A stretch of 53,828 nt of DNA. Origin: Bacteroidaceae bacterium. GTDB lineage: Bacteria > Bacteroidota > Bacteroidia > Bacteroidales > Bacteroidaceae. The position numbers were made by a program, and so were the translations under genes. Position 1 is the first letter of the stretch; every line of letters starts with the position of its first letter. Below, piece by piece: positions 6,696 through 23,667 of this stretch. Below the pieces are notes generated by a model. It saw only the letters and a program-made list of their open reading frames with translations, searched no databases and was not told the origin of the DNA. The DNA is taken from contig JAFWYF010000009.1 of the NCBI GenBank assembly GCA_017522785.1, positions 1 through 53,828 on the forward strand, written 5' to 3'.

Positions 6696-6737
6696 GCGCA
6701 TAGGGGGGGGTAAATAATTGTATTTCAATCATTTACA
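6696..6737 (-). promoter_or_regulatory. Upstream C8 element, copy 1
   Basis: On the minus strand a 14-mer TGTAAATGATTGAA is followed after 13 nt by eight C residues and TATGCGC. It lies about 110 nt upstream of the -7 element of the giant adhesin gene. A near-identical arrangement is found at 23625-23667 upstream of the pilus operon. Function is unknown; a binding site for a shared regulator is my inference. Confidence 0.5.
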
Positions 6738-6860
6738 AGAAAATAATAAAAATCTATATTATTTGTTTTTATATATAGCATTGGTTGGTGTTTTTGATAG
6801 CGCTTTGCTTTAATTTCTCGGTGCCCCACGAACTATTTTTTCTTTGCGCTTTTAACTTAC

Positions 6861-6902
6861 TATATAGGCCGGAGCAAATGTATTTTTGCTCCGGCCTATA
6901 TA
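6861..6902 (-). terminator. 18-bp perfect hairpin after the pilus operon
   Basis: TATATAGGCCGGAGCAAA at 6861-6878 is exactly complementary to 6885-6902, with a 6-nt loop. It begins 95 nt after the stop of the last gene of the run (6997). In the transcript the hairpin is not followed by a strong U tract, so it may be a weak terminator or an mRNA 3'-end stabiliser. The rest of 6473-6996 shows no coding sequence. Confidence 0.6.
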
Positions 6903-6996
6903 TAAATATTAAATAAAAAATTATCACTTCTTTTTACTTGTACGTATTACCGAGGTAAAGCTACTACCCCAACAAGATACAGTTTTCACTATTATA

Positions 6997-8865
6997 TCAC
7001 TCTGAACGAAGTTTTGATTTAAATTTTGTTCCAAAAAGTTCCAATTCTATTTCTTTACCCTTTCCTCTCATATGTACATCCTCTTTTGACGGGAAATTCT
7101 TTTTACAATCATTAATAGTTTTAACTAAAATATCTTCGTTCAATTTTGTTACCAACTCTATATTCTCTTGTAATTTTCTTATTTTATTTAATGAAATCTC
7201 AATAAAGTCTACTGCAACACAGAAACGAAAACGATCGTAAAATGGGGTTTTAATTTTGTTATTATACTCGTACAACAAAACACCTATGGCAAAATAGGAA
7301 TCAGGATATTCCGGAAGCAACTCTTTTGCTAAACAATATCCTTTATACGCATCAGTAAAACGGCCTGCTTTTTTTAGCGTAGTACCATAATCAATATATC
7401 GGTTCGCTTTTTCTAAATCACTTAATTGTTTAAACTCTTCGAATTCAAAAACGTCTGTATAGTAGTTTTTTGTTTGTCCATATTTATTTTGTGCTTTATA
7501 TCGATTTATAATTTCCAAAGCACGGTCGTAGGTCTTATTTTTTTGATAGACTTGTCTACAAGCCTCGAGATACAATTCAGACTCCTTATTACTCTTCAAA
7601 CCACTCTTATAAATCTTTTCGAAATTTTCATAGGTTCTTCCCCCTTCGTCCAACATTTTATTAAAATGCTCCTCCAACTTACCTAAATCGTTGCCTATAA
7701 ATGCAGATAGAGCATCATTAAATGCATCTGTAATACCTGTTCTATAAACATTATAGTTATTAAATAGTTTTGGGTCGGTTTCTGCATCTATAAACTTGTC
7801 TATGCGCTCTTCACATTTTGCTTTGTCTGTTTCCAAAATCGCCTTTACATATTTTTGCAATGGTTTACCCGTTTCTGAAAGGTCGTGTTTTCTTATATCG
7901 TACACAGTTTTCATGTGGCAAATTTCGGCAAACTCCAACAAGTGTATTACACTGATATTTTTTGAATTGGAGTATACCAAATCTTTGTACCAAGGATACT
8001 GTTTATAGACCTCTAAAGAGTCGTGTACATGCTCATTTGCCCAATATTTTCGTGTTGCATTTTCGGAATAGTTTTTATTGTGATGCGTGCTATGAAACAC
8101 CGAATCCATGCTCCACAAATGGTCGTAGTATGTTATTTGTTGTGAGCGTAGTTCTGCAACTGTTATGGAGTCTGTTCCGCTACTGAAATCTATCTGGCTG
8201 TTGAGAGCATCGACATTTTCAACGGCTAGGTCGTAAATCTCTTCTATCTCCTCGCGACGCAGTTTCAGGTTGTCGTAGTTTCCGTTTATTGTATCATTTA
8301 TTACACATGCCATGATAATTGCCACACCATCGAAGTAGAGGTCGAGGCTACGGTTTTCGCGACTGTTAAAGGCCTCTTTCCATGCTAAATATGCTTTTGG
8401 AAATTCCTCGACATAACCACTTTTTATTTGGTTCTTATAGTAGGCAACAAGGTTATTATAGTCTTTGTCGGAGCGTGGCGTTACTTTAAAATGTTTATAC
8501 TCGCGTTTGGGTGCTTTGCCATCAACTAAAAATGGATTTGCTATTGGGTCGGGCACCGAAGATAGCGAGTCATTGGCAACAGTGAGTGAGTCGGTTGGAA
8601 CTGAAAGTGAGTCAGATACAACTGATAATGAATCGATTGTGGCTACAGACAATGTATCGAGTGATGCAACAGAGTTTAATGAGTCTGTAACAAGCGCCAC
8701 ACTGTCGTTCTTTGCAGGTGCGACATTAGTCGACAGTATTGTATCGTTGCTCACTATTGTGCTATCATTTGCATAACGCAATGTTCTGCTTATGTAGCGA
8801 GCTTCGGCATGCTGTACAAAAAGCGACAAAAGCAGTGTTGCTATAATTAGTATACGATATTTCAT
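6997..8865 (-). CDS. Secreted TPR-like protein with Asp-Ser-Leu repeat tract
   Basis: This is a 622-residue protein with an N-terminal signal peptide (MKYRILIIATLLLSLFVQHA). Residues about 35-105 form a low-complexity tract in which DSL/DTL recurs (for example DSLSVPTDSLTVANDSLS). The remainder is helical and Tyr/Lys-rich. The region around residues 470-540 (ANRYIDYGTTLKKAGRFTDA and the following helix) resembles tetratricopeptide repeats. It is the last gene of the pilus run, 23 nt after the TonB-C lipoprotein gene. I know no named function; a periplasmic or surface scaffold role for the pilus machinery is inferred from position. The DSL tract may be a flexible linker. Confidence 0.75.
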   Translation of the reverse strand: MKYRILIIATLLLSLFVQHAEARYISRTLRYANDSTIVSNDTILSTNVAPAKNDSVALVTDSLNSVASLDTLSVATIDSLSVVSDSLSVPTDSLTVANDSLSSVPDPIANPFLVDGKAPKREYKHFKVTPRSDKDYNNLVAYYKNQIKSGYVEEFPKAYLAWKEAFNSRENRSLDLYFDGVAIIMACVINDTINGNYDNLKLRREEIEEIYDLAVENVDALNSQIDFSSGTDSITVAELRSQQITYYDHLWSMDSVFHSTHHNKNYSENATRKYWANEHVHDSLEVYKQYPWYKDLVYSNSKNISVIHLLEFAEICHMKTVYDIRKHDLSETGKPLQKYVKAILETDKAKCEERIDKFIDAETDPKLFNNYNVYRTGITDAFNDALSAFIGNDLGKLEEHFNKMLDEGGRTYENFEKIYKSGLKSNKESELYLEACRQVYQKNKTYDRALEIINRYKAQNKYGQTKNYYTDVFEFEEFKQLSDLEKANRYIDYGTTLKKAGRFTDAYKGYCLAKELLPEYPDSYFAIGVLLYEYNNKIKTPFYDRFRFCVAVDFIEISLNKIRKLQENIELVTKLNEDILVKTINDCKKNFPSKEDVHMRGKGKEIELELFGTKFKSKLRSE

Positions 8866-8888
8866 CTGTAGATTTTTTATTAAAATTC

Positions 8889-10118
8889 TTATTTAAGTCT
8901 GAACATAATAGGTAAAGTAAAGCGAACATGAACAGCCTTGCCACCTTGTCTACCCGGTATCCAATTAGGCATGCTTTCAACTACACGTATTGCCTCTTCA
9001 TCGAGATATGGGTCGCCTGAACTTTTCATTATTTTTGCATCGCTTATAGCACCATCTTCATTTACAAGAAAGTTCACATAGGAGCGAGCTTGTAAGCCTT
9101 TCTCACGACTTTCTTTAGGATATTTGATATTATCTTGCAAATATTTCATAAGTGCTTGCATTCCACCGGGGAACTCGGGTTGCTTCTCTACTATGTTAAA
9201 AATCTCTTCCTCTGTAGATGATTCATTCAATACTGCGGGTTTATCTGAAGGGATTATTTCCTTCTTATCATATTCGGCATCATCCTCTACGATTTTCAAT
9301 ATTTCGGTAATCTGTATTGCTTTTGGAAGTGGAGGAGAGATAGAAATATGTTTTGGTTGCGCTCTTGTAAACATCAACTGTTGTTCTTTGTTATTTATAT
9401 CGGTGTACGACATTGTTAGGACGTCTGCCGACTCATTTACAGCGTAACGTCCTCTAATAGAATCCAATATATATTCATTATTTGGGAGTAATTGAAAGTC
9501 GGGTTGAATAGGTTCTTTATCCCCTGATTGAACTAATAACTGATAATTTAAATTTATACTGAAAGCTGTATAATCACCCTCGTCGAAAGTAGGGAACATT
9601 TTAACAGCCTCACCAAACCGGTTTAACAAGTACCATTCACCTATGAGCTTATGTTTATCTGTTTCATATCCGATATTTATAACATCTATATCTCCTGCCG
9701 GTTTAGAATTATATACATTATCGAACATATAACAGAAGCGAATTGCCTTGCCACCAACCTTGCCGGGAGTCCACGCAGGCATTGAATCTATAATTGCTTT
9801 ATAAAGGGATTCTCTTGTTGGAATACCGTGGCCATAACATCTTGAGACATAGTGGGCAACGCCATTGCTATCGACCTCAAAAACCAAACTTGCGCATTTA
9901 TTCTTCGCAACAATATTATGATGTTTTTTAAGATATTTACAAAGAGCCTCCTCGCCACCGGGGAATTCGGGGTAGACGGTATCTATTGGCAAAATAACCT
10001 GAGGTTGTTCAACAACAGGTTCTACAACATCGACAACAGTTGGTGCCTGTCTTTCGTTACCACATCCAAAAACAAAGATAATGGAACATAACAATAAAAG
10101 AAGTTTTTTAGTTTTCAT
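8889..10118 (-). CDS. Lipoprotein with two TonB-C-like domains and a lipocalin-like middle
   Basis: The protein has 409 residues and a lipoprotein signal with Cys19 (IIFVFGC). Residues about 47-125 and 315-409 are both TonB C-terminal-like domains: each starts with PEFPGG, is followed by a helix (ALCKYLKK; ALMKYLQDNI) and ends with MPAWTPGKVGGKA or MPNWIPGRQGGKA. Between them, residues about 150-250 (beginning LIGEWYLLNRFGE) look like a small lipocalin-type beta-barrel. There is no transmembrane anchor, so it cannot be a classical inner-membrane TonB; it should be an acylated envelope protein. It lies 7 nt after the large barrel gene and 23 nt before the TPR-like gene. Partner and substrate are unknown. 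Confidence 0.8.
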   Translation of the reverse strand: MKTKKLLLLLCSIIFVFGCGNERQAPTVVDVVEPVVEQPQVILPIDTVYPEFPGGEEALCKYLKKHHNIVAKNKCASLVFEVDSNGVAHYVSRCYGHGIPTRESLYKAIIDSMPAWTPGKVGGKAIRFCYMFDNVYNSKPAGDIDVINIGYETDKHKLIGEWYLLNRFGEAVKMFPTFDEGDYTAFSINLNYQLLVQSGDKEPIQPDFQLLPNNEYILDSIRGRYAVNESADVLTMSYTDINNKEQQLMFTRAQPKHISISPPLPKAIQITEILKIVEDDAEYDKKEIIPSDKPAVLNESSTEEEIFNIVEKQPEFPGGMQALMKYLQDNIKYPKESREKGLQARSYVNFLVNEDGAISDAKIMKSSGDPYLDEEAIRVVESMPNWIPGRQGGKAVHVRFTLPIMFRLK

Positions 10119-10125
10119 GTTTTAT

Positions 10126-12156
10126 TTATTTAAGTCGGTATTTTACACCCACTTGAAAGGTTAGTATCTTTATTGGATTAGCATCTATATTATCGTTGTA
10201 CAACAACTCATCTTTATACATTTTAAAGCCCAACTCTCCAAAAATGCCAAGGGAGGGTGTAAACATATATGTTGTATTTAACGCAGCCATTGCACCCAAA
10301 TGCAGGTCTTCGCTTTTTTCAACAGGAGGCAATACTATGCACCCGGGTAACACCTGTTCGCCACCATCGAGTGAACAATCTACAGATGTGTTCATTGTCA
10401 TTATGGGACCAAGATAGAGTGCACTGCCCCACTTGCGTTGCGATGAGTAGCCATAGAACATGTTTGTGAGGTCGAGTTTTAAGTTTAGTGCAATGCTATG
10501 CATGTTATAGTTGTTGTTCCACAAGCCATCGAAGGTGTAGGCTTTGTCGCCAATTTGCTCGATGTAGCTGCATATATTATTAAAATCGTATGTAGAATAG
10601 TCGTAGAGCAGACGTAAACCAAACATTGAGAAGGGTTGGTATTCTGCGGCCAACGACAATGCTGTATTAAAGTTGTTCTTTCCTTCGAAGCCACCACGAA
10701 CCATCATGTAGTTGGAACCTGCCATTGCCGAGAATGAGTATTGCGTTTTAAATGGTTCTTTTGAACGAGCAAACGGACGAACAGCAGTTTCGGGCAGCGA
10801 GAACTCCATACCGGCAGTTATAGAGTAGCTTCTGTCGGTAAAATCTGTTTTTATGTAGTCGTAAGGTGGATTATAAGGCACCGAGAAATGAATTAAGGAG
10901 AAACGAGGCTCAATGAAGAATGTTTTTCCACCCGGCATGTGGTACTTAAAGTTCAAAGCACCGGTAAAACCACCGTATGCCGTTGCTGTGTGCTCTGTTG
11001 TCTCCGGGAAATATTTCCATTGACGACCAAGTTCAAAACCGGCTGAAACATTCATAGTAAAGTTGTGGTTGTTGTAGAAATCGTCTAAATCTTTTACTGT
11101 AGAGAGAAGATTATAGACTAATTCTCCACGTCCGAAGAGATACTGCGTTCTGGTTCTCTCGACATATTCGGGATGTCCCATTTCGGGTTGAGCAGCAGTG
11201 GTTTTCTCTTTCCAAATGTTAGAGGCATAGCCACCCGATACTTGAACAGCAAAACGTTTTGCCAACCAATAACCATATCCAAGATTTATAGATGGGCCTA
11301 AGCGGTCCATGACGCCAAGGTCCGATTCAATAAAGTTCAATCCGCCACCTGCAAACAGATAATGACGTGGGAACACCGGTTTTAGATCTCTTGCACGAGC
11401 CTCGGGCTCATTTGCAAACAGATACTGAATAGATGCCTGCACACCATAGAAAGCATTGTAGGGACGCGAAGCATCGTTTTTTTGCGACATGTTATAGCCT
11501 TTAGTGGCAATTGCGGCATGAGGCTCAACAGAAAGACTCAATTGACTGGAAAGGCGCACTTTTGCACGTATACCGGCCAACAGATAGTAGGCCTGCTCAG
11601 TACGCTTAAACATATCTCCTTGCTGAGCACCAACACCAAATGTGGTTGAAAAATCGAATAATCGGAATGGATTATATCCGAGGAAGTAGCGCGATAGATT
11701 GAAATGATGATTGAGCTGCAACGAATAGCGTTCGAGCTTTACATCTTTGTCTTTGAGGCTTGCTTCGCCATATTGCAAAAGCAGGCTCAATGAGTGATTT
11801 TTGGTAACATCTTTTTCTAATACCAAACCATAGTTTGTACCTAAAGAGAAGTGGTAATTGTTTTGATGTATTATTTGGTCTAACGACATTGTAAGACCTA
11901 CCGACATGTGCGAAAATATACCCGAATTGGAATAACGTATCAAGTCGGAATGGCGAAAGCGACCTTGTGCGGCAAATTCCATAGCATTAAAGCCATAGTT
12001 ACCTGCCGAAAAATGTTCCTCGTCGTGTTGTGTTGTATCGGCCTGCATTACAATGCTACCACCACCGGCAACCGATAGCGGATGAGCAACAGATTGTATC
12101 GTGAAGAAACAGATACAACACACAGCCAATAACAATTTTACTATTTTATCTATCAT
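10126..12156 (-). CDS. Large outer-membrane beta-barrel protein of the pilus locus
   Basis: The preferred ATG at 12156 gives 676 residues. A GTG at 12162 would overlap the previous stop by 4 nt. A hydrophobic signal peptide (MIDKIVKLLLAVCCICFFTI) is followed by repeated amphipathic strands rich in Tyr, Phe and Gly. The protein reads as two successive barrel-like halves, roughly 45-260 and 270-676, each with strands such as RYFLGYNPFRLFDFSTTFGV. It ends in VGVKYRLK, a typical outer-membrane-protein C-terminal strand. The preceding gene encodes an OmpA-like protein two bases away, suggesting joint function. The exact family is not recognised; an assembly platform or pore for the fimbrial locus is an inference. 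Confidence 0.78.
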   Translation of the reverse strand: MIDKIVKLLLAVCCICFFTIQSVAHPLSVAGGGSIVMQADTTQHDEEHFSAGNYGFNAMEFAAQGRFRHSDLIRYSNSGIFSHMSVGLTMSLDQIIHQNNYHFSLGTNYGLVLEKDVTKNHSLSLLLQYGEASLKDKDVKLERYSLQLNHHFNLSRYFLGYNPFRLFDFSTTFGVGAQQGDMFKRTEQAYYLLAGIRAKVRLSSQLSLSVEPHAAIATKGYNMSQKNDASRPYNAFYGVQASIQYLFANEPEARARDLKPVFPRHYLFAGGGLNFIESDLGVMDRLGPSINLGYGYWLAKRFAVQVSGGYASNIWKEKTTAAQPEMGHPEYVERTRTQYLFGRGELVYNLLSTVKDLDDFYNNHNFTMNVSAGFELGRQWKYFPETTEHTATAYGGFTGALNFKYHMPGGKTFFIEPRFSLIHFSVPYNPPYDYIKTDFTDRSYSITAGMEFSLPETAVRPFARSKEPFKTQYSFSAMAGSNYMMVRGGFEGKNNFNTALSLAAEYQPFSMFGLRLLYDYSTYDFNNICSYIEQIGDKAYTFDGLWNNNYNMHSIALNLKLDLTNMFYGYSSQRKWGSALYLGPIMTMNTSVDCSLDGGEQVLPGCIVLPPVEKSEDLHLGAMAALNTTYMFTPSLGIFGELGFKMYKDELLYNDNIDANPIKILTFQVGVKYRLK

Positions 12157-12158
12157 TC

Positions 12159-14999
12159 TCACTTTTTACTCTTTTTCTTGTACTCACTAAGCAGTCCCTT
12201 CAGCTTTTCGACAATCTCTTCGTTGTTTCTGATAGAGATATCACGTTTTAGTGATACCACTAATACATTTACATATCTCTTATCTATATCGAAGCATTTG
12301 AAAAGAGCCGATTTTGCATCTTCATAGTTATTGTTACCCGATTTTTTTATTGACTCCAATGCGCGTATATACCATGTATATGGGTGTTTTTCATCGACAA
12401 CCAAGGAGGGCTTACTGGGTGTGGATGGCAAGCTGTCGGTTTGCGCCAACAGCGTACTGTCGGGCAGTGCAACCATTGTGGTGTCAGATAATGCAACCAT
12501 TACGGTATCTGGCTTATTATCCATAGCCGGATGCATGATTACATCGCTCATTCTGTTTTTCCAAACATTAATTGCATTTTCTATCACTCTGTAGCCATCG
12601 CCGGCATTGGATATAAGGTCTTTATCGTTCGATGCAACTGCAATTTTTGTTATATCTTTCTCGAAACAACGTGCCAAACAGGTCTCTGCCTCTGTTTTAT
12701 CACCTTTTCTAAAATAGATTATTGATTTGAGATAATCGGAAACGGGATTATCGGGAAGGTTTAGCGTGTCGGCCATTGCCATATTCAGATACTTCACATC
12801 GGCATCCTCAGGAGTGTCCATTGCCAAATTTATGACAACCCTGTTTGTTACCGATGTAGAGGAAACCACTCGTCTTATTTTTTCGGCCTCTTCTTCTGTA
12901 GAAACTTTACCGGCCTTGTAACCTCCACGCAGACATTTGGAGAAGGACATGAGAGTATCATAAGGGGTTGTTCCTGTACATGCCTTGTTCATGATTCCTT
13001 CCAAAATAGGTATTTTATTCTTATAAGAACGTTTGTGCTGTTTCAGAGTCATTATGAGTTGATTGGCTGCAAATTCCGGCCAATTGACATAGTTCACAAT
13101 TGGGGCAGCATTTCCATCACCATCACGTTTTATTGCACGTATTATTTTTATTGTTCCATCTGCATTGAGTGTATAGTCGAGAAATGGTTCAAGTAGTTGC
13201 ATATCAATGGTATCGCGTGCAATATAACAGCATGCAAGCAGAGCAGCCGCATAGGGCCAATATCCATCACAATATTTTGAGTTCTCTGTCTCTGTATCGC
13301 GTGTTACCTTTAAAGCGTGCCGTACAACACCTTCCAACTCCTTTTTATCTTTGATGTGCTTGAACAACGACCAAAACTCTCCACGTTGAAAAAGAGTGTT
13401 GGCATTGTTATTATAGTCTTCGAGAATTTTATCTATAGATTTTTGTCCCTCGTAGTTTTCTGTATATTTAAAGCGCACAGTTCTGAGTTTGGGAAGATAT
13501 ATATCTTTTATTATAGATTTATAATATGGCAATGCTGCAACGCGGTAGCCTTGCGCCATCATATTATTCGGAAATTTTTCGACAATATCTTTAACTTCTT
13601 TGGCTTCATTCACATATCCATCGCGTGCAAGCGAATCGGCAAGGCAATCCCAACCGGCTACACGAGAGTCCTTTATCTCTACCGGGCGATTAGTGTAGCG
13701 CTTTATTTCTCTTTGCACATAAGTGGCACGCTCTTTTGCAAGGCTTTTGTTCTTCTCTTCACTTCCATCGGGTGAAGCCATACCATAAACTTCGACCTTA
13801 ACAAGGCTACGTTTTTCATTCTCACGTATAGCGATAAATGTATCACGCAACTTATTAAGTTGTTTCATATTGGTAGAGTCATTAGCCACAATAGTAGACT
13901 TTCCGACCTCGAAATTTAGATGCAACTCCTCATCTTTGTCTATACGAACATCCTCTTGTCTTTCAAAGAATTTATCATCGTCGGGCAAAAACTCTTTGAA
14001 TGTAAAATCGATAAATTTTAACGGACTACGTCGTTCACCATCATCTTTTCTGTCTGTGGAATAAACAGGAACGTTATAATCGAATACTTTTATTATGGCA
14101 CCAAAAGGGTATGGATGCGATGCGTTGGGGTCGTAACCCGAAAGAGTATCTACAACATGTGCTATGATTGTATCGTGTCCTTCGGTAAATTCTATTCTTG
14201 AGTATCGCCTGATGGTGTCTTCGAGTACATAGTAACGCATTGAGTCGGGCAATGTCATGGAGTAGAGTTTATCGTGCATGATGTCGTAGTCCATTCTGCG
14301 GTCCTGTGTTACATTGTAGTCGAACTTATCATAGAAAAAGGCATTTCCGTAGGAGAAGACAGAGTCGCTCTCTTCGTCGGAAAAATCGATGCGGTCGTAC
14401 CACAAAGGTTGAACAACCACACGCATGTTCGACTCCATTTTGTAGGGAATGACGTATGTAGCACGACTTGTCATTACACCATCTTCTTCGACGCTATCGG
14501 ATGGTTTTTCTGTCGATTTAATTTGTTTAGCATCAATCGTTACCTGATCTAGTCTTTGGTCTTCATCTGTCATCAATTTTTGCTTACCCTGAGCTTTTCC
14601 TTTTTTCTTAAGTTCAATTTTCATTCCGGAACGGCATTGTTTAATACTAAACATTGCATGGGAAATAAACAAATCCTCGCACCACACCAGCAACGTCGCT
14701 TCGCTGCCGTACATTTCGATGGTAAACTCACCTTTATAATTGGGGGTGGTAGATGCATATTTAACTTTGGTGGCACCTTTATCTTGCTTTTGAAGACCTT
14801 TAAGTGCATCTTCGGCATCCTTTTTATTTATAAAAGAGTAGACAGTAATTTCATCCTCGTATCTATTATATACAAACATAGGTTTATCAGGATCGACAAC
14901 ATCGATACTCATTTTATAAACAGTTTGTGCATGCAACTCCCCTATCGCAAAGAGAAATAGAAAAAGAGAGGATAATATGTAGAATAGTCGTAGACGCAT
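12159..14999 (-). CDS. OmpA-like protein with C-terminal helical repeats (DUF3868-like N-terminus)
   Basis: This is a 946-residue protein with a signal peptide (MRLRLFYILSSLFLFLFAIG). Residues 25-145 form a beta-rich domain resembling the N-terminal part of proteins called DUF3868 in fimbrial loci. At about 355-435 there is an OmpA-like domain: LNFEVGKSTI, then VKVEVYGMASPDGSEEKN and SLAKERATYV, the conserved asp/asn and arg pattern for peptidoglycan contact. From 450 on it is helical and TPR-like. A tract of DT/DS repeats (DTVMVALSDTTMVALPDSTL) sits near 840-865. Relatives in Bacteroides fimbrial loci are much shorter, about 500 residues. It probably links an outer-membrane complex to the cell wall. 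Confidence 0.78.
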   Translation of the reverse strand: MRLRLFYILSSLFLFLFAIGELHAQTVYKMSIDVVDPDKPMFVYNRYEDEITVYSFINKKDAEDALKGLQKQDKGATKVKYASTTPNYKGEFTIEMYGSEATLLVWCEDLFISHAMFSIKQCRSGMKIELKKKGKAQGKQKLMTDEDQRLDQVTIDAKQIKSTEKPSDSVEEDGVMTSRATYVIPYKMESNMRVVVQPLWYDRIDFSDEESDSVFSYGNAFFYDKFDYNVTQDRRMDYDIMHDKLYSMTLPDSMRYYVLEDTIRRYSRIEFTEGHDTIIAHVVDTLSGYDPNASHPYPFGAIIKVFDYNVPVYSTDRKDDGERRSPLKFIDFTFKEFLPDDDKFFERQEDVRIDKDEELHLNFEVGKSTIVANDSTNMKQLNKLRDTFIAIRENEKRSLVKVEVYGMASPDGSEEKNKSLAKERATYVQREIKRYTNRPVEIKDSRVAGWDCLADSLARDGYVNEAKEVKDIVEKFPNNMMAQGYRVAALPYYKSIIKDIYLPKLRTVRFKYTENYEGQKSIDKILEDYNNNANTLFQRGEFWSLFKHIKDKKELEGVVRHALKVTRDTETENSKYCDGYWPYAAALLACCYIARDTIDMQLLEPFLDYTLNADGTIKIIRAIKRDGDGNAAPIVNYVNWPEFAANQLIMTLKQHKRSYKNKIPILEGIMNKACTGTTPYDTLMSFSKCLRGGYKAGKVSTEEEAEKIRRVVSSTSVTNRVVINLAMDTPEDADVKYLNMAMADTLNLPDNPVSDYLKSIIYFRKGDKTEAETCLARCFEKDITKIAVASNDKDLISNAGDGYRVIENAINVWKNRMSDVIMHPAMDNKPDTVMVALSDTTMVALPDSTLLAQTDSLPSTPSKPSLVVDEKHPYTWYIRALESIKKSGNNNYEDAKSALFKCFDIDKRYVNVLVVSLKRDISIRNNEEIVEKLKGLLSEYKKKSKK

Positions 15000-15029
15000 A
15001 TTTCTTTGTGTATAGCAAACAAAAGTTGC

Positions 15030-15569
15030 TTATCTTATTATATATGATATTGAGGCTTCGATACGCGGCACAAGCATAATACCATCGCTATTGGTGCGAC
15101 TGCCGTAGTAGTCGTATCTATCACCTTCGTAATACTCTTTTTGTTTAAATCCAAGCACGTTCAAACCGGTTAGCAGTTCCAAATTCAAACGTTTTGAAAG
15201 GTTTAGCGTGTAACCCATGGCAACTCCCATTGCCACAGAGTTTCCTTCGTATATTTTTTTATTCCAATGAATATCGTAGTTTGCCATTTGCGCAGAAAAA
15301 CCAATGAAATGACGTGTAAACGGACGACCGCTAAACCAATAACGGAATTCCGGCGAGATGGCCATGATTGTGAGATCTTTGCCCCATGGTTTAGTACAAC
15401 CATAGAGGTTCAAACCTATTGTGTGTTTTTCGCCCACAACAATATCAGTACCTAAACTGGGTATCATTGCCACATCTTTCACGATGTCGCTCTTAATGGC
15501 AACCATCTGCGCCTTAACATAAGAGACAGAAAGCAATAACAGCCCTATTATGAATATCTTCTTTATCAC
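15030..15569 (-). CDS. DUF3575 outer-membrane beta-barrel protein
   Basis: This 179-residue protein starts with GTG at 15569 (no ATG is available) and has a signal peptide (MIKKIFIIGLLLLSVSYVKA). The sequence matches DUF3575: residues about 35-50 read GTDIVVGEKHTIGLNLYG, then ISPEFRYWFSGRPFTRHFIG, GVAMGYTLNLSKRLNLE and a C-terminal strand ASISYIIR. Such small barrels accompany FimA/Mfa-type fimbrillin genes in Bacteroidales. It lies between the last fimbrillin gene and the OmpA-like gene, with 17 and 30 nt gaps. It is a second DUF3575 member besides the first gene of the same run. Confidence 0.88.
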   Translation of the reverse strand: MIKKIFIIGLLLLSVSYVKAQMVAIKSDIVKDVAMIPSLGTDIVVGEKHTIGLNLYGCTKPWGKDLTIMAISPEFRYWFSGRPFTRHFIGFSAQMANYDIHWNKKIYEGNSVAMGVAMGYTLNLSKRLNLELLTGLNVLGFKQKEYYEGDRYDYYGSRTNSDGIMLVPRIEASISYIIR

Positions 15570-15586
15570 GTTAGAATTTAATTATT

Positions 15587-16543
15587 TTATATATTGGGTG
15601 TATAAATGATATCGACATTATACACTTTTCCTTGCTCAAAATTCAAATCATCTTCGCTAACCTCCAAAGGCAACAAGAGTGGCAAATTAGCAATAGACAA
15701 CCTACCTCGAACATTTATTTTTGTTATGCGCATAGACGCAGGAATATACAAAGGGATTGTTATGGTTAGTTTCTCTTTATTGATTAGTAGTTCTTCATCG
15801 ACAACGTTCAACGGTGTATTTATATACGATGGGTTGGAATCGTCGCTTATGAATGTTCCGTCTTGTAAATTAATGTAACCTACACCACTTTTGTTAAAAT
15901 ACACCTCTAATGCCTCTATTTTAACATACTGAAGTATATTGAAAATGGCTTTATTAACTGTTACATTAAGATTTAACTTTGCAAATGCATGTTTGTATTG
16001 CAAAGAAAATTTACCGTTACTTGTATAATCGGCTCTGGTTTTGAAAACTCTACCGGAATAGAGATAGTCGGTTGAAAAACAATCGTCGTAGAGATTTACA
16101 CTCAGATAGCATGTTGAATCTTTAAATAGTAAATCTTCGTCGGGCACATAGGGAATGTATGAATAGACCTCGAGCGCCGAATTGTTATATCTGGGGAAAT
16201 TGATTCCTACATTGGCATCGATGGGAGTAATATATCCCGGAATGACACCTGCAAACTCGGCATTGCATAGCCCTGTGCTACACGATGCAAGGTTTGCCCC
16301 TATCAAAGCATTTGAAAGGGAATCCTTTTCATATACAGGAAAACCAATAACACCTATTTCATAGGCATTATCTGCAGCTCTTGTATATGCGATATCTACA
16401 TCAAATTCGTAACCGGGTTGTTCGGCATAGAAACTGACGTTGATATCCTCATTGGATAGCATGTCGCTATCCAATGAGGCTTTATCACAACTGACTGTTA
16501 GAATTATTAATAAAGTACTTAATATTAATACTCTTCTAGACAT
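15587..16543 (-). CDS. Fimbrillin-family lipoprotein 4 (short)
   Basis: A 318-residue protein with lipobox Cys19 (LIILTVSC). A potential trypsin-type cleavage site follows at Arg55 (AYTRAADN), then a strand like those of the other fimbrillins (YEIGVIGFPVY). The middle HAFAKLNLNVTV and the final FEQGKVYNVDIIYTPN match the conserved core and last strands of Mfa-like fimbrillins. It is shorter than the three neighbours and lacks the final extended strand after the G-x-x-Y motif, so it could be a tip or terminator subunit (inference). Its start codon directly abuts the stop of the preceding fimbrillin gene. Confidence 0.8.
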   Translation of the reverse strand: MSRRVLILSTLLIILTVSCDKASLDSDMLSNEDINVSFYAEQPGYEFDVDIAYTRAADNAYEIGVIGFPVYEKDSLSNALIGANLASCSTGLCNAEFAGVIPGYITPIDANVGINFPRYNNSALEVYSYIPYVPDEDLLFKDSTCYLSVNLYDDCFSTDYLYSGRVFKTRADYTSNGKFSLQYKHAFAKLNLNVTVNKAIFNILQYVKIEALEVYFNKSGVGYINLQDGTFISDDSNPSYINTPLNVVDEELLINKEKLTITIPLYIPASMRITKINVRGRLSIANLPLLLPLEVSEDDLNFEQGKVYNVDIIYTPNI

Positions 16544-17752
16544 TTAGTTCAATTCAAATTTTAGTGATTCGTCGGGGTCGGCTTCTTGCCAATCCTCGAG
16601 TGTTGCATCTATCGAAATAGTTGAAACACCCACTACTGTTACATAAATCTTGTAGATATAACCCGATTTGAAGCGAGCGTTATCGCCACTTAACTTAATG
16701 GTTATACGTTTCTCGGACCAGTACTCCTTTTCGGGGTCATCGGCATCGCAAAGACATACCGACATGTAGTACTCTTTTTCGTTAGGACAAACCATGATAC
16801 CTTCTCCTACACGTACAGTATCGGAAACCTCCTCGCCCAATTCGTTTGTACTAAACGAGAATGGAATGGGATTTTCTGATACATCGGTACCGGAAGAATC
16901 TTTCAATGCAATATCTATCATGTCGTATCTATTGACAGGAACAATTGCTCCCGAACGACTGTCGTCCAAACGGTTTGCCACAACCATACGCAAGTTGGAA
17001 TATGTATCCAAGATGCATACATCCTTTATCTTAAGGTTCTTAACCTGCGAGAAATCGGCATTCATCTCCTGTTTGTTCCAACTTTTTTGTGCAACAAAAT
17101 AGAATTGGAACTGTGTAAGGCTATGTTTAAAGTGCATGTGAGCAACAGATGACTCTTGCGATTTCACATAACGTGCACTGTAAGCATACTTGTTGTCGAT
17201 TTTCTCGGAACGGCCCCATAATATATCGATATATCCATCGGTTTCAATATCGACATACACAGAATCGGAGTTGTGTACATAGCTCTGCTGACGTGGATAG
17301 TAACCGAAGAAATCGTAACCATACCAACTTGTTATTGGATAGTACCAGATATAATCTTGTCCGGGAAGCACCTCGAGCATAGCATTCTCCTCGCCTGTAT
17401 CGACTGCGGTACATGCCAAGTTACTCCAATAGATACCGTTGGTTGTAAAACCATAACCAGTTGAGGTGTTGTCCAAAACAACATTCCAATCGACATCGTT
17501 TGCATCGTCGCTACCGCCGATTCCTGTTTTTTCGCGCGCCAAACAGAAGATACCCAATGAGTCGGGTTCGGTAATATCATTTACCATTGCTCTGGTTGAT
17601 ACGTATGCAGGGAACCTAGTGTCGCTTTGCAACAAGATTGGAACGTCCGATACACGCTCCCCCGGTTGTGAGGGTGCGTGATGGTCGGAGTTGGAACAAC
17701 CGGCTAAAAAGGAAGATACTACAAGTAGTAAAAATAATATTCTTTCTTTCAT
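16544..17752 (-). CDS. Fimbrillin-family lipoprotein 3
   Basis: A 402-residue protein with lipobox Cys19 (SSFLAGC). A basic site at Arg54 (VSTRAMVN) follows, then LGIFCLAREKTG. The core contains SVAHMHFKHSLTQFQFYFV, the usual fimbrillin H-x-L/F motif, and the end reads FKSGYIYKIYVTVVGVSTIS followed by LEDWQEAD. This final G-x-x-Y...G...W pattern is shared with the two fimbrillins upstream. The protein is predicted to be lipidated, exported to the outer membrane, cleaved at the Arg and polymerised by strand exchange, as known for FimA/Mfa1. Which subunit it is (shaft or tip) cannot be told. Confidence 0.85.
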   Translation of the reverse strand: MKERILFLLLVVSSFLAGCSNSDHHAPSQPGERVSDVPILLQSDTRFPAYVSTRAMVNDITEPDSLGIFCLAREKTGIGGSDDANDVDWNVVLDNTSTGYGFTTNGIYWSNLACTAVDTGEENAMLEVLPGQDYIWYYPITSWYGYDFFGYYPRQQSYVHNSDSVYVDIETDGYIDILWGRSEKIDNKYAYSARYVKSQESSVAHMHFKHSLTQFQFYFVAQKSWNKQEMNADFSQVKNLKIKDVCILDTYSNLRMVVANRLDDSRSGAIVPVNRYDMIDIALKDSSGTDVSENPIPFSFSTNELGEEVSDTVRVGEGIMVCPNEKEYYMSVCLCDADDPEKEYWSEKRITIKLSGDNARFKSGYIYKIYVTVVGVSTISIDATLEDWQEADPDESLKFELN

Positions 17753-17792
17753 TATTGCCTATTATATGTTTCTTATTATGGTTTAAGAATTA

Positions 17793-19049
17793 TTACTCGT
17801 CGATTTTATCGTTATCAACAGCAATGTCTTCGCCTTTCTCCCAAGGAGCAAGTTCAAGTGTAATAACAATCTTCTCTACACCATAAACAGTGAAAGTGAT
17901 GTTGTACTGCTTACCTGCCTCGAAGTTAGCACCTGAAGGTACTCTCAAAGTTTGAGGATAAACAGATGTGTATTTCTCACCACCTGCTCTAGGAGTTTGA
18001 GAAATGTAAATCTCAAGGTCGTATGTCTCTTGAGGTATTAACATCATACTCTCACCAATGCGGCTGGTAATAGCTTTGTCCTCTACTACATCCCATTTAG
18101 GCTGGATAGGAGTCAAAGTAACCAAGGGAAGTGCACCTGTCTCTGTTGTCTCCAAAGCATCACGCTCTTTAAGAGTAATAACGTCCTCTACATCTATATC
18201 GGTGAGGTAATCGGTGGGTGCAGTTGTTCCATCCCATGCTACAATAAGGTTAGCCTCTGTTTTTGCGTTTACAATTTTAACTGAGTCGATAGTTACACCT
18301 ATGTATGTAGCATCATCGGCAATAGCTTGGTCTGACACAGCTTTTGAACTGGGCTGTACAAAGAATGCCAAACGAGAAAGAAGGTGTTGGAATATAAAGT
18401 GAGGCTGTACACCGTTAGGATCTTCCTGACCATTGTAGCCTACTTTCTTACGAGCAGAGTATGCGCTATAGTAACGTGTAGCGTCGTAACCAAGTTGCTC
18501 GAGTGTGAGACGTTGAGCATCGGACATGTCTGCTTTTGAAACTATAAGGTCTTGTGTACCGTCTAACTTAACAGGCAATACGTATTTGTCGCCCTCGGCA
18601 TTGAGTGCGGGGGTTGCACCATCTTTTGCTGCATCGTCGGCACGATAAGCAAAGAAGCTGTAATTACCTGACATAGGATAGTATTTGGGGTCGCCATACT
18701 CTGCATATCCTACGTTTGATGCTGCATCTGCAGTGGGTGCTGTAATTTCGGCATTGTTGAAGATGTCGCCATAAACATCCTTAGCAATAGAGAAATCTGA
18801 TTTGTCGAACATGTATACATTCAACTTTTCACCACGCCAGATGTTGTTACCACCATCCTCGGCTTTTAAATCACCGACAGCACCGGTACCTCTTGTTGTA
18901 ACATCGATGTTAGCACCACCTACAGAGAACAGAATAGGAGCTTTGTCCTGTTCGCCACCACCTGCGGGAGGAGTTACAACGTCATCGTTTGAGCAGCTTA
19001 CAAAACTGCCGACAGCAATACATGCTGCCATCAAAAATAACTTTTTCAT
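17793..19049 (-). CDS. Fimbrillin-family lipoprotein 2 (candidate major pilin)
   Basis: A 418-residue protein with lipobox Cys19 (VGSFVSC) and a basic site at Arg53 (DVTTRGTG). Residues around 80-200 contain YYPMSGNYSFFAYRAD and KLDGTQDLIVSKADMSDAQ, then the HFIFQHLLSRLAFFV motif, all typical of Mfa-like fimbrillins. It ends FEAGKQYNITFTVYGVEKI...LAPWEKG. Compared with neighbours it is rich in Ala and Gly and its codons (GGT, AAC, GTT, CTC) resemble the giant adhesin gene, suggesting strong expression. It is therefore the best candidate for the main shaft subunit, although this is an inference. Gaps to neighbours are 35 and 40 nt, among the widest in the run. Confidence 0.87.
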   Translation of the reverse strand: MKKLFLMAACIAVGSFVSCSNDDVVTPPAGGGEQDKAPILFSVGGANIDVTTRGTGAVGDLKAEDGGNNIWRGEKLNVYMFDKSDFSIAKDVYGDIFNNAEITAPTADAASNVGYAEYGDPKYYPMSGNYSFFAYRADDAAKDGATPALNAEGDKYVLPVKLDGTQDLIVSKADMSDAQRLTLEQLGYDATRYYSAYSARKKVGYNGQEDPNGVQPHFIFQHLLSRLAFFVQPSSKAVSDQAIADDATYIGVTIDSVKIVNAKTEANLIVAWDGTTAPTDYLTDIDVEDVITLKERDALETTETGALPLVTLTPIQPKWDVVEDKAITSRIGESMMLIPQETYDLEIYISQTPRAGGEKYTSVYPQTLRVPSGANFEAGKQYNITFTVYGVEKIVITLELAPWEKGEDIAVDNDKIDE

Positions 19050-19084
19050 TGTTTAAAAAATTAGGTTAATAAATATAATAATTA

Positions 19085-20392
19085 TCACTTAAATTCATCG
19101 TATTCAACATTTTCATCATCTATAGGTATGAATTCCGGTTCACCCCAATCCAATCCATCCATACTAAGTTTAATTGGTTGATATCCATAGATATGTATTG
19201 TTACTTGGTATTCGGAACCGGCAACAAAAGGATAGTATTTGTTAGTTCCATCGGGGAGAACCGTACGATTCTTTAGGTCGTAACGAGCTAAATATCGACG
19301 TATTTTTCCATCTGTTGATTGGAATGCACATGCAATGTATAGGTCGTACTGTTCACGTGGTGGCAATAGCAAGCCTAATCCAAAATTATTTATGATTTCG
19401 TTCTTGCCTACACTATGTTTTAAAGGTGTGAGAGCTGTTTGAGTGCCATCGACAGTTTCACCATCTTCGGGGATTTCGCATAGATGTATCTCTTCGAGTT
19501 CCTCTGTTACACCGGGAATCATTGTCATTCCCAAACGGGATGTATCGTTGGCAGCAACAGTCAGACGCCAATCTCGGTGTGCTTTAACATATATATCCTC
19601 AACATATATTTTATCACTCATGGCATCTTCGCCAACCAAATTAAAGACAAAACGGGAGAGACAATGTTTTGCATCAAAAACCGGGAATATTGAACGGTGT
19701 CCGGTGGTTGTACTATAAAGGAGTTCGCCGTTCAGCACATTGGTTGCAAACCACTTGTTGGCTGTTGGATCGAGACTTTCGAGTTGGCTTTGTGTAGGAC
19801 GTGCAACAGAACAGATTACATCTTGTGTTCCATCGATTTTAATGTCGAGATAGATGCGCTCTTTTTCGCGTACAGCTCTGTCATTTAATATCTGAGCATC
19901 GTCTATTGTATATGCAAAAAAGTTATATTTATGTTCTTGATTTGTTTGGCTATAGTAGTATGCGGCATCTCTACCAACAAAGTCGAGTGTTTCGTCGTAA
20001 TTTATTTTTGTAGGAGCACCTAAGCCTGTTTCCGGGTCATCGACCAGACATTGCCAAGGATTGTTTCTATCCTCTTCGATTAATGGATTATATGTTGCTC
20101 TGTAATCGATTGCACCATTGTAGGCATAGTTATTTGCCAAAAATGAGTAGACATAGAATGTAAGATTATTCCACACCCATTCACGGTCGGGGTCGATAGC
20201 ACCTACACCACGATTTGTAGAAATGTAATATGGATTATTCAATGACATCATAATAGGCACCTTATCATATATTGTTTCGTAATTCAGGGTGTCTTTGGTG
20301 TCATCTTTATAATCTATGCCAACATAACTATCGGAGCAACTGACAAAGAAAGCAACAAATAGCAAATAATATATTACTTTTTTGATACTCAT
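19085..20392 (-). CDS. Fimbrillin-family lipoprotein 1 (possible anchor or Mfa2-like subunit)
   Basis: I chose ATG 20392 (435 residues), which gives an ideal lipoprotein signal with Cys19 (FVAFFVSC) and a 4-nt gap to the previous gene; ATG 20404 would add four residues and overlap the previous stop. A basic site STNRGVG is at Arg61. The protein shares LDIKIDGTQDVICSVA and the HCLSRFVFNLV motif with the next fimbrillin, so the two are paralogues. It ends FVAGSEYQVTIHIYGYQPI with LDWGEPE. As the first fimbrillin after the DUF5119 gene it occupies the place where anchor or minor subunits often sit in such loci; that role is inferred. Confidence 0.83.
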   Translation of the reverse strand: MSIKKVIYYLLFVAFFVSCSDSYVGIDYKDDTKDTLNYETIYDKVPIMMSLNNPYYISTNRGVGAIDPDREWVWNNLTFYVYSFLANNYAYNGAIDYRATYNPLIEEDRNNPWQCLVDDPETGLGAPTKINYDETLDFVGRDAAYYYSQTNQEHKYNFFAYTIDDAQILNDRAVREKERIYLDIKIDGTQDVICSVARPTQSQLESLDPTANKWFATNVLNGELLYSTTTGHRSIFPVFDAKHCLSRFVFNLVGEDAMSDKIYVEDIYVKAHRDWRLTVAANDTSRLGMTMIPGVTEELEEIHLCEIPEDGETVDGTQTALTPLKHSVGKNEIINNFGLGLLLPPREQYDLYIACAFQSTDGKIRRYLARYDLKNRTVLPDGTNKYYPFVAGSEYQVTIHIYGYQPIKLSMDGLDWGEPEFIPIDDENVEYDEFK

Positions 20393-20396
20393 AATA

Positions 20397-21653
20397 TTAT
20401 ACATCCAAATCTATATTCTTGTAAATTATCCAATTATCTAAATTTCTATCTCCATCGACAGTCTCCAAAACTTGGTCCTTGTCTATTTTGAGGATATTAT
20501 CTATGTTCAAAATGACTGTTTCTTTGTTTTGATATATGATTTTACCATATTCGCCTATGGTGTTGTAAAGATTTATTCCCACATTAAACAATTTGGAAAC
20601 TTTGCGACCCAATTTATCTATTGTGTAACTAAATATTGCCAACTGCATTATTCCGGCACCGGTTGTAAATGTGGGGTCGTCGCTACGCAATAATCCCATG
20701 ACCGATATATGACCTACATAGTTCGTGAGCCCATACCAAGAAGATTGACCTTGGGCTGTATTTCCCTGTGTATCATTTTGAATGTCGGACTCCTCTTTTG
20801 GCATGAAGAGGACCTTTAGTGTGTGCGATGGGTCTACAACACCTGTTATGAGGTTCATACTCTCGGGGATACCGGAGACTTCGGCCATCATTTTTTCTAT
20901 CATGACAGAGTCGCGCTCAATTGAAAAATGAATTTCTATGTCCTGCGTTAATCTGTGAGGGGTTATCTTTATTATATTCTCATTCTTGTCGTCTATGGTT
21001 TTAACACCGGAACTAAAATAGTATATCGGTGTAGAGCCTGTTATATATGTTGAATAGGGATTGTAATCTTTCCAATTCATTCCATGTTTATCGACTTTGT
21101 CGTCGGAGAGTGGATAGGACTTGTATTTTATGACTAGTCTGTCGTTTAAAACTCTCTCGGCTATCTCTTCCGATGTTAGTCCTAAATATTCATAACAGTC
21201 ATCCTCGTGGAAATAGTTATATGAGATGAAATGATAATCTCCGTTTTTTACATAGAACTTATCGCCAGTCTCCTTTTCCGTTGTTGTACCATTGGAGCCT
21301 TGAGTTCCATCCACATTGCCATCGGTTGCATTATCATTGTCGGTTTCTTCACCGGTGTTAAAATCACCGTCATAGGGTTTGTTGAATATATATTCGCCAC
21401 CATTGTTGGCTTGCTGTGTACTGGAGTGATAGCCACAGAACCATGTATTTACAATTCTATGTCCGATGACCAACATGGAGTCGGGTATATCGCTTTTTTG
21501 AACGAAATTATCGTCCCATGAGTATTGTAAATCGACCAAAGCCAAATGGGGATGCAGTTCATCCTTGCAAATTTCGACCTCTGTAGTATCGCAAGAGGTG
21601 AAAATTGCAACAACAAGCATTACTGCCAGATATGTAATTATAAATCTTTTCAT
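20397..21653 (-). CDS. DUF5119-type lipoprotein of fimbrial locus
   Basis: A 418-residue protein with lipobox Cys21 (VAIFTSC). The region right after the Cys (residues 22-48: EVEICKDELHPHLALVDLQ and then YSWDD) is the signature of DUF5119, a family found next to DUF3575 and fimbrillin genes. The middle contains an Asn/Thr/Gly-rich segment near residues 98-125. A strand HRLTQDIEIHFSIE at about 230 matches the fimbrillin-like motif of its neighbours. Unlike the four fimbrillins it lacks the T-R-A/G site after the lipobox, so it is unlikely to be processed the same way and may stay membrane-anchored (inference). Gap to the upstream gene is 10 nt. Confidence 0.8.
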   Translation of the reverse strand: MKRFIITYLAVMLVVAIFTSCDTTEVEICKDELHPHLALVDLQYSWDDNFVQKSDIPDSMLVIGHRIVNTWFCGYHSSTQQANNGGEYIFNKPYDGDFNTGEETDNDNATDGNVDGTQGSNGTTTEKETGDKFYVKNGDYHFISYNYFHEDDCYEYLGLTSEEIAERVLNDRLVIKYKSYPLSDDKVDKHGMNWKDYNPYSTYITGSTPIYYFSSGVKTIDDKNENIIKITPHRLTQDIEIHFSIERDSVMIEKMMAEVSGIPESMNLITGVVDPSHTLKVLFMPKEESDIQNDTQGNTAQGQSSWYGLTNYVGHISVMGLLRSDDPTFTTGAGIMQLAIFSYTIDKLGRKVSKLFNVGINLYNTIGEYGKIIYQNKETVILNIDNILKIDKDQVLETVDGDRNLDNWIIYKNIDLDV

Positions 21654-21663
21654 TGTCTATAAT

Positions 21664-23418
21664 CTACTGCAATATAGTTGTTGAATCGGAAGGTACATCC
21701 ACTGTTGTAATAGTATCGGAAAGAGTATTAAACATAAGGGTATCTGATTTATGCATAAGAGTATCGGACATCTGAAGCTTTGTCTCTAACACTGTTTTCT
21801 TTTCCCTGTTTTTCTTATCCTTTTTCTTTTTTTTACTCTTTTCGGGTTTTATATTTTGCTGGTCATCTATTTTGGTTGCCACCTTTGTACCAAACATTTT
21901 TTCTAATGAGATACGTTTTACTGTATTCTCCAATTCAATTTTATGATTCTCGCCACTACGTTCATTGACATTGTAGGATTTCATATATACAGTATCTCTA
22001 TTCAAGAAATGTATTCTGGATGTATAGAAACGGTTATTTTCCTCTTTGTTAAATTCCGAATATTTTTTATAAATATTCTCCTTTCCTGTAGCTGCCGGCA
22101 CAGACTCACCAATATATTTATTATTATGAGGTAGTACTGAGTATTCGTTTACAGAAGGAACCAATTGAGCAATCAGCTGTATATAAGGAACAGGGTCTAT
22201 GCTATCACCGGTATTGGTTATAATTCCATCTCGAATACTATTATATCTTTTGATTATCTCGGTTTCAATCGATGTAATACCAACCTCGTCTTTTATACCG
22301 GCATAATGCTTCAACATATCGTTGAGGAAAGGCATATCCAAATCCTTAGCCGACGATATGGCTCTATTTTTCAACTGCTTTTTATAAGCGGTTGAGAGCA
22401 ATTTATTGGGTATTTTATAAGGTTTATACAACTCTGAAAATTCTGTCAACAGCATTGTGGAGTCGGCATCTTTGTACATCTTGTTTATACGGCGTATCTC
22501 TTCGTTCTTTTTACGTATGATACTGTTCCAAGAATCTATCGAATCGGGGTTTATGTAATAATTTGCTGTTGAGTCGCTCCATTCAAAGAACTTAACATTG
22601 TTCTGTTCGTAGTTTTGTCTCCACTTGAAAGCCTCCTCCAATTGACGCAATTTTGTATCGTCGTAGGAAACAATTTGTTCTCTAATAGATTTAAATCGAT
22701 AGACAAATCCGATACGTATTTCGGAAAGCATGGGGAACGGTACAACGTGGGAATCCTTCTTGCCTGCAGAGACATAGTGTCGGTCTTCGGAAGCATATTT
22801 GAATTTGTCGTAATTGGTATAAACAAAACCAACGTCGGCACCAACCTCAAAATCTATAGATGTTGCGTTGCCGTAGAGATAGAGAGGTGTATTAAAACCC
22901 AATGAAGCACCAACACCTATTGCCGTTCCCTGATAACCTGTTTTACCCAATTTAAGTGTATATTTGTCGTAACTTATATATGGACCAACATAATAGGCAC
23001 GATTTGGACGTGGGTTATTGCGGGCTGTCAAAGTTTGCGAATAGGCATAGTATTTATTTGTAAATCCTTTTGCATTCTTTCTTAAATCTTGTTCCCAAGA
23101 AGCTATTTTGCGTGTTCTGAAGTACCATAACAGATTAGCTTTTGCACCCAAAATATTATAAACATAACGGGAATCGTTTGTAAGTGAGGAGTTCCAATTA
23201 TATTTTGTTGAAAAACCAAGTGATATCTTTTTGGTTTTATTATGGACAATATCGTACTCCAGACCTATGTTTGGTGTCATCAACCCCCAATTCAAAACAT
23301 TTGTACGCAAGCCTAAACGTTCTTTGAACGAGACAAGCGTATCATTCTCATTCACAACATTTGAAAGACAAGTCGTAAACGAGAAGAAAAGAAGGATTGA
23401 AAGAATTATAAATCGCAT
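21664..23418 (-). CDS. DUF3575-containing outer-membrane protein with long C-terminal extension, first gene of the pilus run
   Basis: I prefer ATG 23418 (584 residues) because MRFIILSILLFFSFTTC is a proper signal peptide; an ATG at 23487 would add 23 residues before it. Residues about 30-250 are a DUF3575 barrel: LGLRTNVLNWGLMTPNIGLE, then ISLGFSTKYNWN and IRIGFVYRFKS. Residues 255-500 are helical and charged, with no family I recognise. The tail holds a Lys-rich stretch (KPEKSKKKKKDKKNREKK) and then Ser/Asp/Thr repeats with SDTLM occurring twice. Ordinary DUF3575 proteins have about 180-200 residues, so the extension is unusual. A promoter and the C8 element lie upstream. Confidence 0.8.
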   Translation of the reverse strand: MRFIILSILLFFSFTTCLSNVVNENDTLVSFKERLGLRTNVLNWGLMTPNIGLEYDIVHNKTKKISLGFSTKYNWNSSLTNDSRYVYNILGAKANLLWYFRTRKIASWEQDLRKNAKGFTNKYYAYSQTLTARNNPRPNRAYYVGPYISYDKYTLKLGKTGYQGTAIGVGASLGFNTPLYLYGNATSIDFEVGADVGFVYTNYDKFKYASEDRHYVSAGKKDSHVVPFPMLSEIRIGFVYRFKSIREQIVSYDDTKLRQLEEAFKWRQNYEQNNVKFFEWSDSTANYYINPDSIDSWNSIIRKKNEEIRRINKMYKDADSTMLLTEFSELYKPYKIPNKLLSTAYKKQLKNRAISSAKDLDMPFLNDMLKHYAGIKDEVGITSIETEIIKRYNSIRDGIITNTGDSIDPVPYIQLIAQLVPSVNEYSVLPHNNKYIGESVPAATGKENIYKKYSEFNKEENNRFYTSRIHFLNRDTVYMKSYNVNERSGENHKIELENTVKRISLEKMFGTKVATKIDDQQNIKPEKSKKKKKDKKNREKKTVLETKLQMSDTLMHKSDTLMFNTLSDTITTVDVPSDSTTILQ

Positions 23419-23527
23419 CTTAAGTTTTAGTGTCTTATAACACATAAAGAAACTGTTCAAGCATCTAAAAAACGCTTTTCTTATCATTGGTGCTTGACAA
23501 TATTTAGAACAGTTTCTATTTTTTTTT

Positions 23528-23536
23528 GCAAAATTA
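23528..23536 (-). promoter_or_regulatory. -7 promoter element of the pilus operon
   Basis: The minus strand reads TAATTTTGC, matching TAnnTTTG. A TTTG lies 16 nt upstream, slightly closer than the usual 19-21. The predicted transcript starts near 23521, about 100 nt before ATG 23418. Confidence 0.55.
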
Positions 23537-23624
23537 TATAAAAATTTTTAAACAAAGAGTAATTTTTATATACTTTTCTCTTAAGCCTCAAAGATTTAAC
23601 AATTTAAGTTGATTTTAACAAAAG

Positions 23625-23667
23625 GCATATAGGGGGGGGTAAAAACGCTGACATTCAATTAGTTACA
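23625..23667 (-). promoter_or_regulatory. Upstream C8 element, copy 2
   Basis: On the minus strand TGTAACTAATTGAA is followed after 14 nt by eight C residues and TATATGCC. It lies about 95 nt upstream of the -7 element of the pilus operon. Twelve of 14 positions of the first block and the whole C8 tract with flanking TTTA and TAT match copy 1 at 6696-6737. Confidence 0.5.

Follow-up and report, generated by a model that had tools for sequence, protein, structure and literature searches.

The stretch of DNA examined here, which we refer to as the window, comprises 53,828 nucleotides from a Bacteroidaceae bacterium and has a GC content of 40%. Its left part carries a giant adhesin-like gene and a pilus locus, both on the minus strand, and two similar sites containing a run of eight C residues (C8), named copy 1 and copy 2. 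The relevant features are as follows.

2 to 6472, minus strand: giant adhesin-like gene of 2157 codons that continues past the window end (open reading frame, sub-threshold family match)
6584 to 6591, minus strand: -7 box TAACTTTG facing the adhesin gene, 111 nt past the C8 of copy 1
6700 to 6714, minus strand: TTTAC8TAT 15-mer of copy 1, with C8 at 6703-6710
6724 to 6737, minus strand: upstream block TGTAAATGATTGAA of copy 1, of the form GTAWnnnATTGA (sequence match)
6861 to 6903, minus strand: hairpin with an 18-bp stem, 3' of the final pilus-locus gene (z -6.4, very strong)
6997 to 21653, minus strand: remainder of the pilus locus (open reading frames and domain matches)
15587 to 19049, minus strand: three Mfa_like_1 (fimbrillin-like) genes (domain match)
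21664 to 23487, minus strand: DUF3575 protein, first gene of the pilus locus (domain match)
23529 to 23536, minus strand: -7 box TAATTTTG facing the pilus operon, 95 nt past the C8 of copy 2
23629 to 23643, minus strand: TTTAC8TAT 15-mer of copy 2, with C8 at 23632-23639
23654 to 23667, minus strand: upstream block TGTAACTAATTGAA of copy 2 (sequence match)

The two copies bracket the pilus locus in identical orientation. Copy 1 is located 230 nt from the start of the adhesin-like gene and copy 2 is located 144 nt from the start of the DUF3575 gene. The sole family match of the adhesin-like protein is a sub-threshold one to Peptidase_M26_N, and the word adhesin is our interpretation. The first-pass annotation had described a common architecture of the two sites on the minus strand, and the inspection bore this out: both TTTAC8TAT 15-mers are present with tracts of equal length, and 12 of the 14 letters of the upstream block agree. 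The gap between block and tract had been given as 13 or 14 nt, with TTTA counted twice, and the actual organization is TGTAAATGATTGAA, 9 nt, TTTA, C8 and TAT at 6700-6737 for copy 1, and TGTAACTAATTGAA, 10 nt, TTTA, C8 and TAT at 23629-23667 for copy 2. The TAnnTTTG boxes proposed in front of both genes were recovered, and an additional box, TACTCTTTG, is placed 70 nt past the C8 of copy 2. A hairpin had also been noted ahead of each site. The one at 6861-6903 is strong, and the one preceding copy 2 was matched by 29 of 200 shuffles and is no better than shuffled sequence.

We considered two other explanations of the sites and rejected them. First, the reading frames crossing the tracts are short, with at most 59 codons and no ATG before the tract, and the crossing frames that do possess an ATG have only 17 and 16 codons, which speaks against a coding role. 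Second, since the C8 copies bracket the locus, a pilus island bounded by att-like direct repeats was considered; this idea was ruled out by G056, a genome of the same genus, where the pilus gene lies beside recG (identified by eye) without a tract.

We then asked how unusual the pair is. When TTTAC8TAT was held fixed, the local alignment score of the pair, 41, was equalled in 163 of 3000 flank shuffles. Agreement of a 14-mer at 12 of 14 letters and equal offset was reached in 23 of 5000 shuffles, and it was also seen in 131 of 3916 pairs of other C-tract loci of the genus, a set that includes homologous loci and loci with promoter boxes in common. The similarity beyond TTTAC8TAT is modest, and the pair alone is weak evidence. 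These values fit an explanation in which the pair is largely accidental, namely two intergenic C8 runs whose AT-rich flanks resemble each other modestly, and so does the finding that the exact motif occurs across the genus in the own genome only, apart from one match with C4 in G057.

The tracts of the own genome (2,104,847 bases in 40 contigs) speak against such an accident. No C or G run of at least 7 other than the two C8 copies was found in the window, and the entire 2.10 Mb contains six such runs, five of 8 and one of 7. A genome-wide search with the full pattern, which the first-pass annotation had proposed, returned the two window sites alone, with none for the reversed control. Three of the six runs are TTTAC8TAT, the window pair being joined by a single site on contig 15; the tract length is 8 in all three, and all three are situated upstream of DUF3575 or adhesin-like genes. 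As described below, the upstream block also recurs in relatives. A largely accidental pair is somewhat unlikely in our estimate. The contig 15 copy is followed by another DUF3575 gene and belongs to the standard element defined below, with TTAAT as its first half-site, and a near-standard TTAC7 on contig 39 precedes a protein with a signal peptide (heuristic rule). Two runs of eight on contig 7 fall within open reading frames, at 137-144 (L015) and at 65930-65937 (L009, in an Acyl_transf_3 gene), and it is possible that these coding tracts act as frame switches.

C tracts were then collected from 44 genomes of the genus, 36 of which contain TTTAC7, at 99 places compared with 42 for the reversed control. 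All 99 places were read, as 94 loci (30 and 64) plus four more; with three further runs of the own genome added and one duplicate dropped, 101 rows were classed as 52 type A, 14 type B and 35 neither. Type A, which we call the standard form, is a class defined in this analysis from these loci. Read on the G strand, it consists of TTAAC-N5-TTAAC, 0-6 nt, G7-10, TAA, about 15 nt, TAnnTTTG and the gene; the TTAAC half-sites form a 10 bp repeat in which some letters may vary. The closest open reading frame on the G side reads away from the tract on the same strand at 52 of 52 type A loci, a count that includes two loci with the frame start 322 and 1218 nt off and seven in which the mechanically called frame spans the tract. 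Type B has the repeats inverted relative to type A, with the gene on the same side in 12 of 14 cases. Exact TTAAC-N5-TTAAC sites number 52 in the 94 loci, which had been picked for carrying a tract; a G tract follows 40 of these sites, and type B accounts for 11 of the 12 that lack one.

The geometry of the standard form is narrow. The -7 box, sought 10-30 nt past the tract, was recognised in 36 of 51 genus copies, and in all 36 the second half-site is 33-37 nt away from TTTG. For the named set (82 copies at 80 loci) the corresponding distance is 33-38 nt in 58 of 62. The gap before the tract and the tail behind it compensate each other in the genus copies (correlation -0.73), and none of 10,000 permutations was equally tight. 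The tract thus floats within a spacer that hardly varies in length. Compensation for the length of the tract itself is weak: permuting this length alone was equally tight in 580 and 1353 of 10,000 trials, and the correlation of distance with tract length is 0.63 in the genus set and 0.17 in the named set. Tract lengths across loci range from 7 to 14. The flanks are alike in 21 pairs, of which 11 represent a single locus retrieved twice and six differ in tract length, for instance 8 versus 9 in L047 and L074 and 7 versus 8 in the same-genome paralogs L138 and L164, all observed differences being between species or between paralogs. The standard architecture together with the spread of lengths from 7 to 14 suggests that the tract promoters may be phase-variable.

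The standard form is widespread. TTAAC-N5-TTAAC followed within 0-8 nt by G4 was found in 38 of 44 genus genomes, compared with one of 44 for the reversed control, and a stricter pattern matched at least 120 stretches in a collection of 84,980 species. Among the matches listed, 79 of 80 carry Bacteroidales-type titles, two less familiar names having been checked, and one is titled 'Clostridium sp.'; the genera and families among the matches listed include Prevotella, Muribaculaceae, Duncaniella, Parabacteroides, Alistipes and others. A standard element is present in a cultured strain, Duncaniella muris DSM 103720 (L174). The Clostridium-titled record, L212, contains an element of Bacteroidales type and, by reading, a TonB-receptor-like frame, and it is probably a mixed bin.

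The genes behind the standard promoters encode mostly secreted and surface proteins. A signal peptide or lipobox, called with a home-made hydrophobicity rule and with uncertain starts at L010 and L039, was found in 53 of the 63 type A and type B targets of the genus, a count that omits one locus whose gene is more than 330 nt away. For comparison, the same rule gave 5 of 22 for neighbours across the tract (Fisher 3e-7) and, for the window genes, 10 of 29 (5e-6). For the named set, 69 non-duplicate loci remained after 11 loci common to both sets were dropped, with 39 targets carrying a signal peptide or lipobox, 18 without either and 12 loci having no open reading frame. A Pfam scan of ten of the 63 targets gave matches at 0.001 for seven, some of which fall under the curated cut-off, and none for three; the families are ricin-type lectin, LPP20, CarboxypepD_reg (two), MG2, fasciclin and DUF3575 with OmpA. 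An exception to the surface theme is an ABC ATPase at six loci, five of them type A. The standard promoter is common to a protein family from several species of the genus, at L035, L045, L047, L048, L065, L068, L074 and L117, whose members have signal peptides of similar sequence (MRKF...GAMAQ) and differ in the downstream body. The architecture, geometry, orientation, kind of target and distribution of the standard form are clear at the level of sequence.

Detailed comparison revealed that the window copies are not members of this form. First, against TTAAC-N5-TTAAC within 0-8 nt of the tract they score 5 and 6 of 10 (shuffle P 0.96 and 0.49). Second, a TAnnTTTG on the G strand with its TTTG 22-28 nt past the tract reaches 3 of 6 positions in each copy (P 0.88 and 0.80). 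Third, their genes lie on the C side and not on the G side. Six standard copies scored alongside gave 9-10 of 10 for the repeats and 6 of 6 for the -7 box. The tract of the standard form lies between the half-sites and the -7 box, and this is not so in the window copies. These values also bear on a reading in which the copies act as other-strand promoters, made of G8-TAAA and then TnAnTTAC, that drive antisense or small RNAs. The last four letters of TnAnTTAC do stand 22 and 23 nt past the G tract, which is the place of TTTG in the standard form; against this, the match to the -7 positions is at the shuffle level, and on that side both copies are adjoined by the end of an opposite-strand gene. 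We regard antisense promoters as very improbable.

Relatives of the window genes do carry the standard form in some species. Within the genus, relatives of the adhesin N-terminus were found in just two further genomes. Upstream of each, on the strand of the gene, is the standard form (G7 in G010, G6 in G006), with TAAT after the tract and a -7 box, GTAACTTTGCA, that is the same as that of the window adhesin gene. The DUF3575 pilus gene has relatives in nine other genomes, two of which carry the standard form (G057 and G014, the latter with a short broken tract, GGGGAGG); with G007 excluded, the remaining six have no element in the upstream DNA covered, which was at most 420 nt. Absence from the same loci in close relatives had been named in advance as an argument against a shared signal, and for the pilus gene such absence is what most relatives display.

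The orthologs with the standard form raise a further explanation, in which the ancestral adhesin and pilus promoters possessed TTAAC repeats and a G tract, and the window copies arose from such standard elements by decay or rearrangement in a lineage that kept the tract only, in reversed orientation. The own genome holds just two near-standard copies, on contigs 15 and 39, and CATA-G8-TAAATA is common to copy 1 and the contig 15 element (TATA-G8-TAAAAA in copy 2), both of which fit this explanation. It does not lead one to expect a common non-standard block in both copies that appears also in G001 and G056, and the tract is still intact at 8. We consider decay unlikely.

The common block defines what we call the second form, GTAWnnnATTGA-N9/10-TTTAC7-14, which comprises the window copies and three weaker non-coding copies in the genus. 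ATTGA was picked after the pair had been seen, with four patterns tried; within the 60-70 nt upstream of 32 non-standard genus loci it occurs six times, always at position 15-16 from TTTA, and in 45 type A loci it occurs twice, at other positions. The six loci are both window copies, one in G001, two in G017 and one in G056. GTAW stands at the position described in the first-pass annotation in all three non-coding copies outside the window (G001, G017 and G056), compared with an overall rate before ATTGA of 61 in 3792. The 12 fixed letters of the block, allowed at two spacings, are matched at 11 in G056 and at 10 in G001, against a background of four in 34,203 positions with at least 10 and none with 11. 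Firmer support for the pair comes from these matching blocks in G056 and G001.

All five non-coding copies have a gene start no more than 334 nt away on the C side, and four of these genes are pilus-type, adhesin-like or secreted and one encodes an AraC-type regulator (G056). In G001 the copy precedes a secreted-type protein. The G017 copy lies 201 nt ahead of a DUF3575/OmpA gene, from the family of the first pilus gene of the window. At this locus, L083, there are C8 tracts at 1495 and 1749, 254 bp apart and with similar upstream sequence; the tract at 1749 falls inside the signal-peptide codons of the DUF3575/OmpA gene and was omitted from the five, and murB lies divergently beside that gene. 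The G056 copy (L100) has the longest tract, C14, between the regulator gene and a DcaP-type outer-membrane gene. The block at fixed spacing with a gene on the C side was found at the window copies, G001, G017 and G056, partly by construction, the second form resting on five non-coding loci in four species and being defined from the window pair. A search of the family gave 14 sites in 12 of 399 genomes, with two sites for the reversed control. Eight sites lie outside the genus, and GTAW is present in three of them (L273, L280 and L283). Since exactly these three overlap open reading frames, the second form is not claimed beyond the genus. At L280 and L283 the C10 tract is in a short frame, with HsdM-type and EcoRI-type DNA methyltransferase genes, respectively, a short way downstream.

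Taken together, we suggest that C8 tracts are a regulatory mark of surface-protein promoters and that the window pair represents a rarer, divergent, upstream form of it, a reading to which we give slightly less than even weight. The shared signal for surface genes envisaged in the first-pass annotation survives in that tracts mark mostly secreted or surface promoters in the genus and in Bacteroidales, and in that some relatives have the standard form ahead of their orthologs of the two window genes; it does not extend to the exact motif, confined to one genome, nor to most pilus orthologs, and the window copies possess neither the direct repeats nor the usual orientation. In the standard form, a response regulator of the OmpR/PhoB type would bind the TTAAC half-sites and recruit polymerase, and slippage in the tract would alter the spacer length and hence expression. 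The window copies, whose C strand faces the gene and which precede the adhesin and pilus -7 boxes by 95-111 nt, might serve as upstream control sites and not as the promoter itself, which we propose with lower confidence. A dedicated regulator for the element is plausible. The own genome encodes three OmpR-type regulators (PhoB, RprY and one unnamed), none of which is linked to the element. RprY was considered for this role and set aside; the excerpted text of PMC3646045 gives no motif for it.

AT-rich direct-repeat half-sites that adjoin the promoter, as in the standard form, are a general property of the OmpR/PhoB family, KdpE being an example. Bacteroidetes promoters recognised by Sigma-ABfr have TAnnTTTG at -7 and TTTG near -33 (PMC7366714, in excerpt); the standard form has the same -7 box and differs from them in that a G tract and TAA occupy the -33 region and direct repeats precede it.

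The value of the C8 observation is as a pointer to a promoter class of gut Bacteroidales, which in many gut species stands before genes for secreted proteins, among them lectin-like, fasciclin and OmpA/DUF3575 proteins. In Bacteroidales, phase variation is mainly attributed to DNA inversion in the excerpted text of PMC11868660, and a search of an open-licence paper collection gave no description of promoters that carry a homopolymer between activator half-sites and -7 box. If our reading is true, the tracts would offer a second, easily scored route to surface diversity in Bacteroidales that is readable from sequencing reads.

The closest known system is that of fim2 and fim3 of Bordetella pertussis. 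In the available excerpts, expressing promoters there have 14 C and others 13 C, compared with tracts of 7-10 here, and phylum, sigma factor and half-sites are different. Addition or loss of one C abolishes expression from Bordetella fim promoters (PMC10172299, in excerpt). The likeness is drawn here from the DNA sequence: the Bordetella promoter, with its BvgA sites and poly(C), depends on a response regulator and serves a surface appendage, and the length of its homopolymer sets the distance between activator and polymerase, an arrangement predicted also for the standard form, in which activator and switching are putative. We tentatively propose, with rather less than even confidence, that gut Bacteroidales possess a dispersed phase-variable surface regulon convergent with Bordetella fim, of which the window would hold a second, upstream-acting form.
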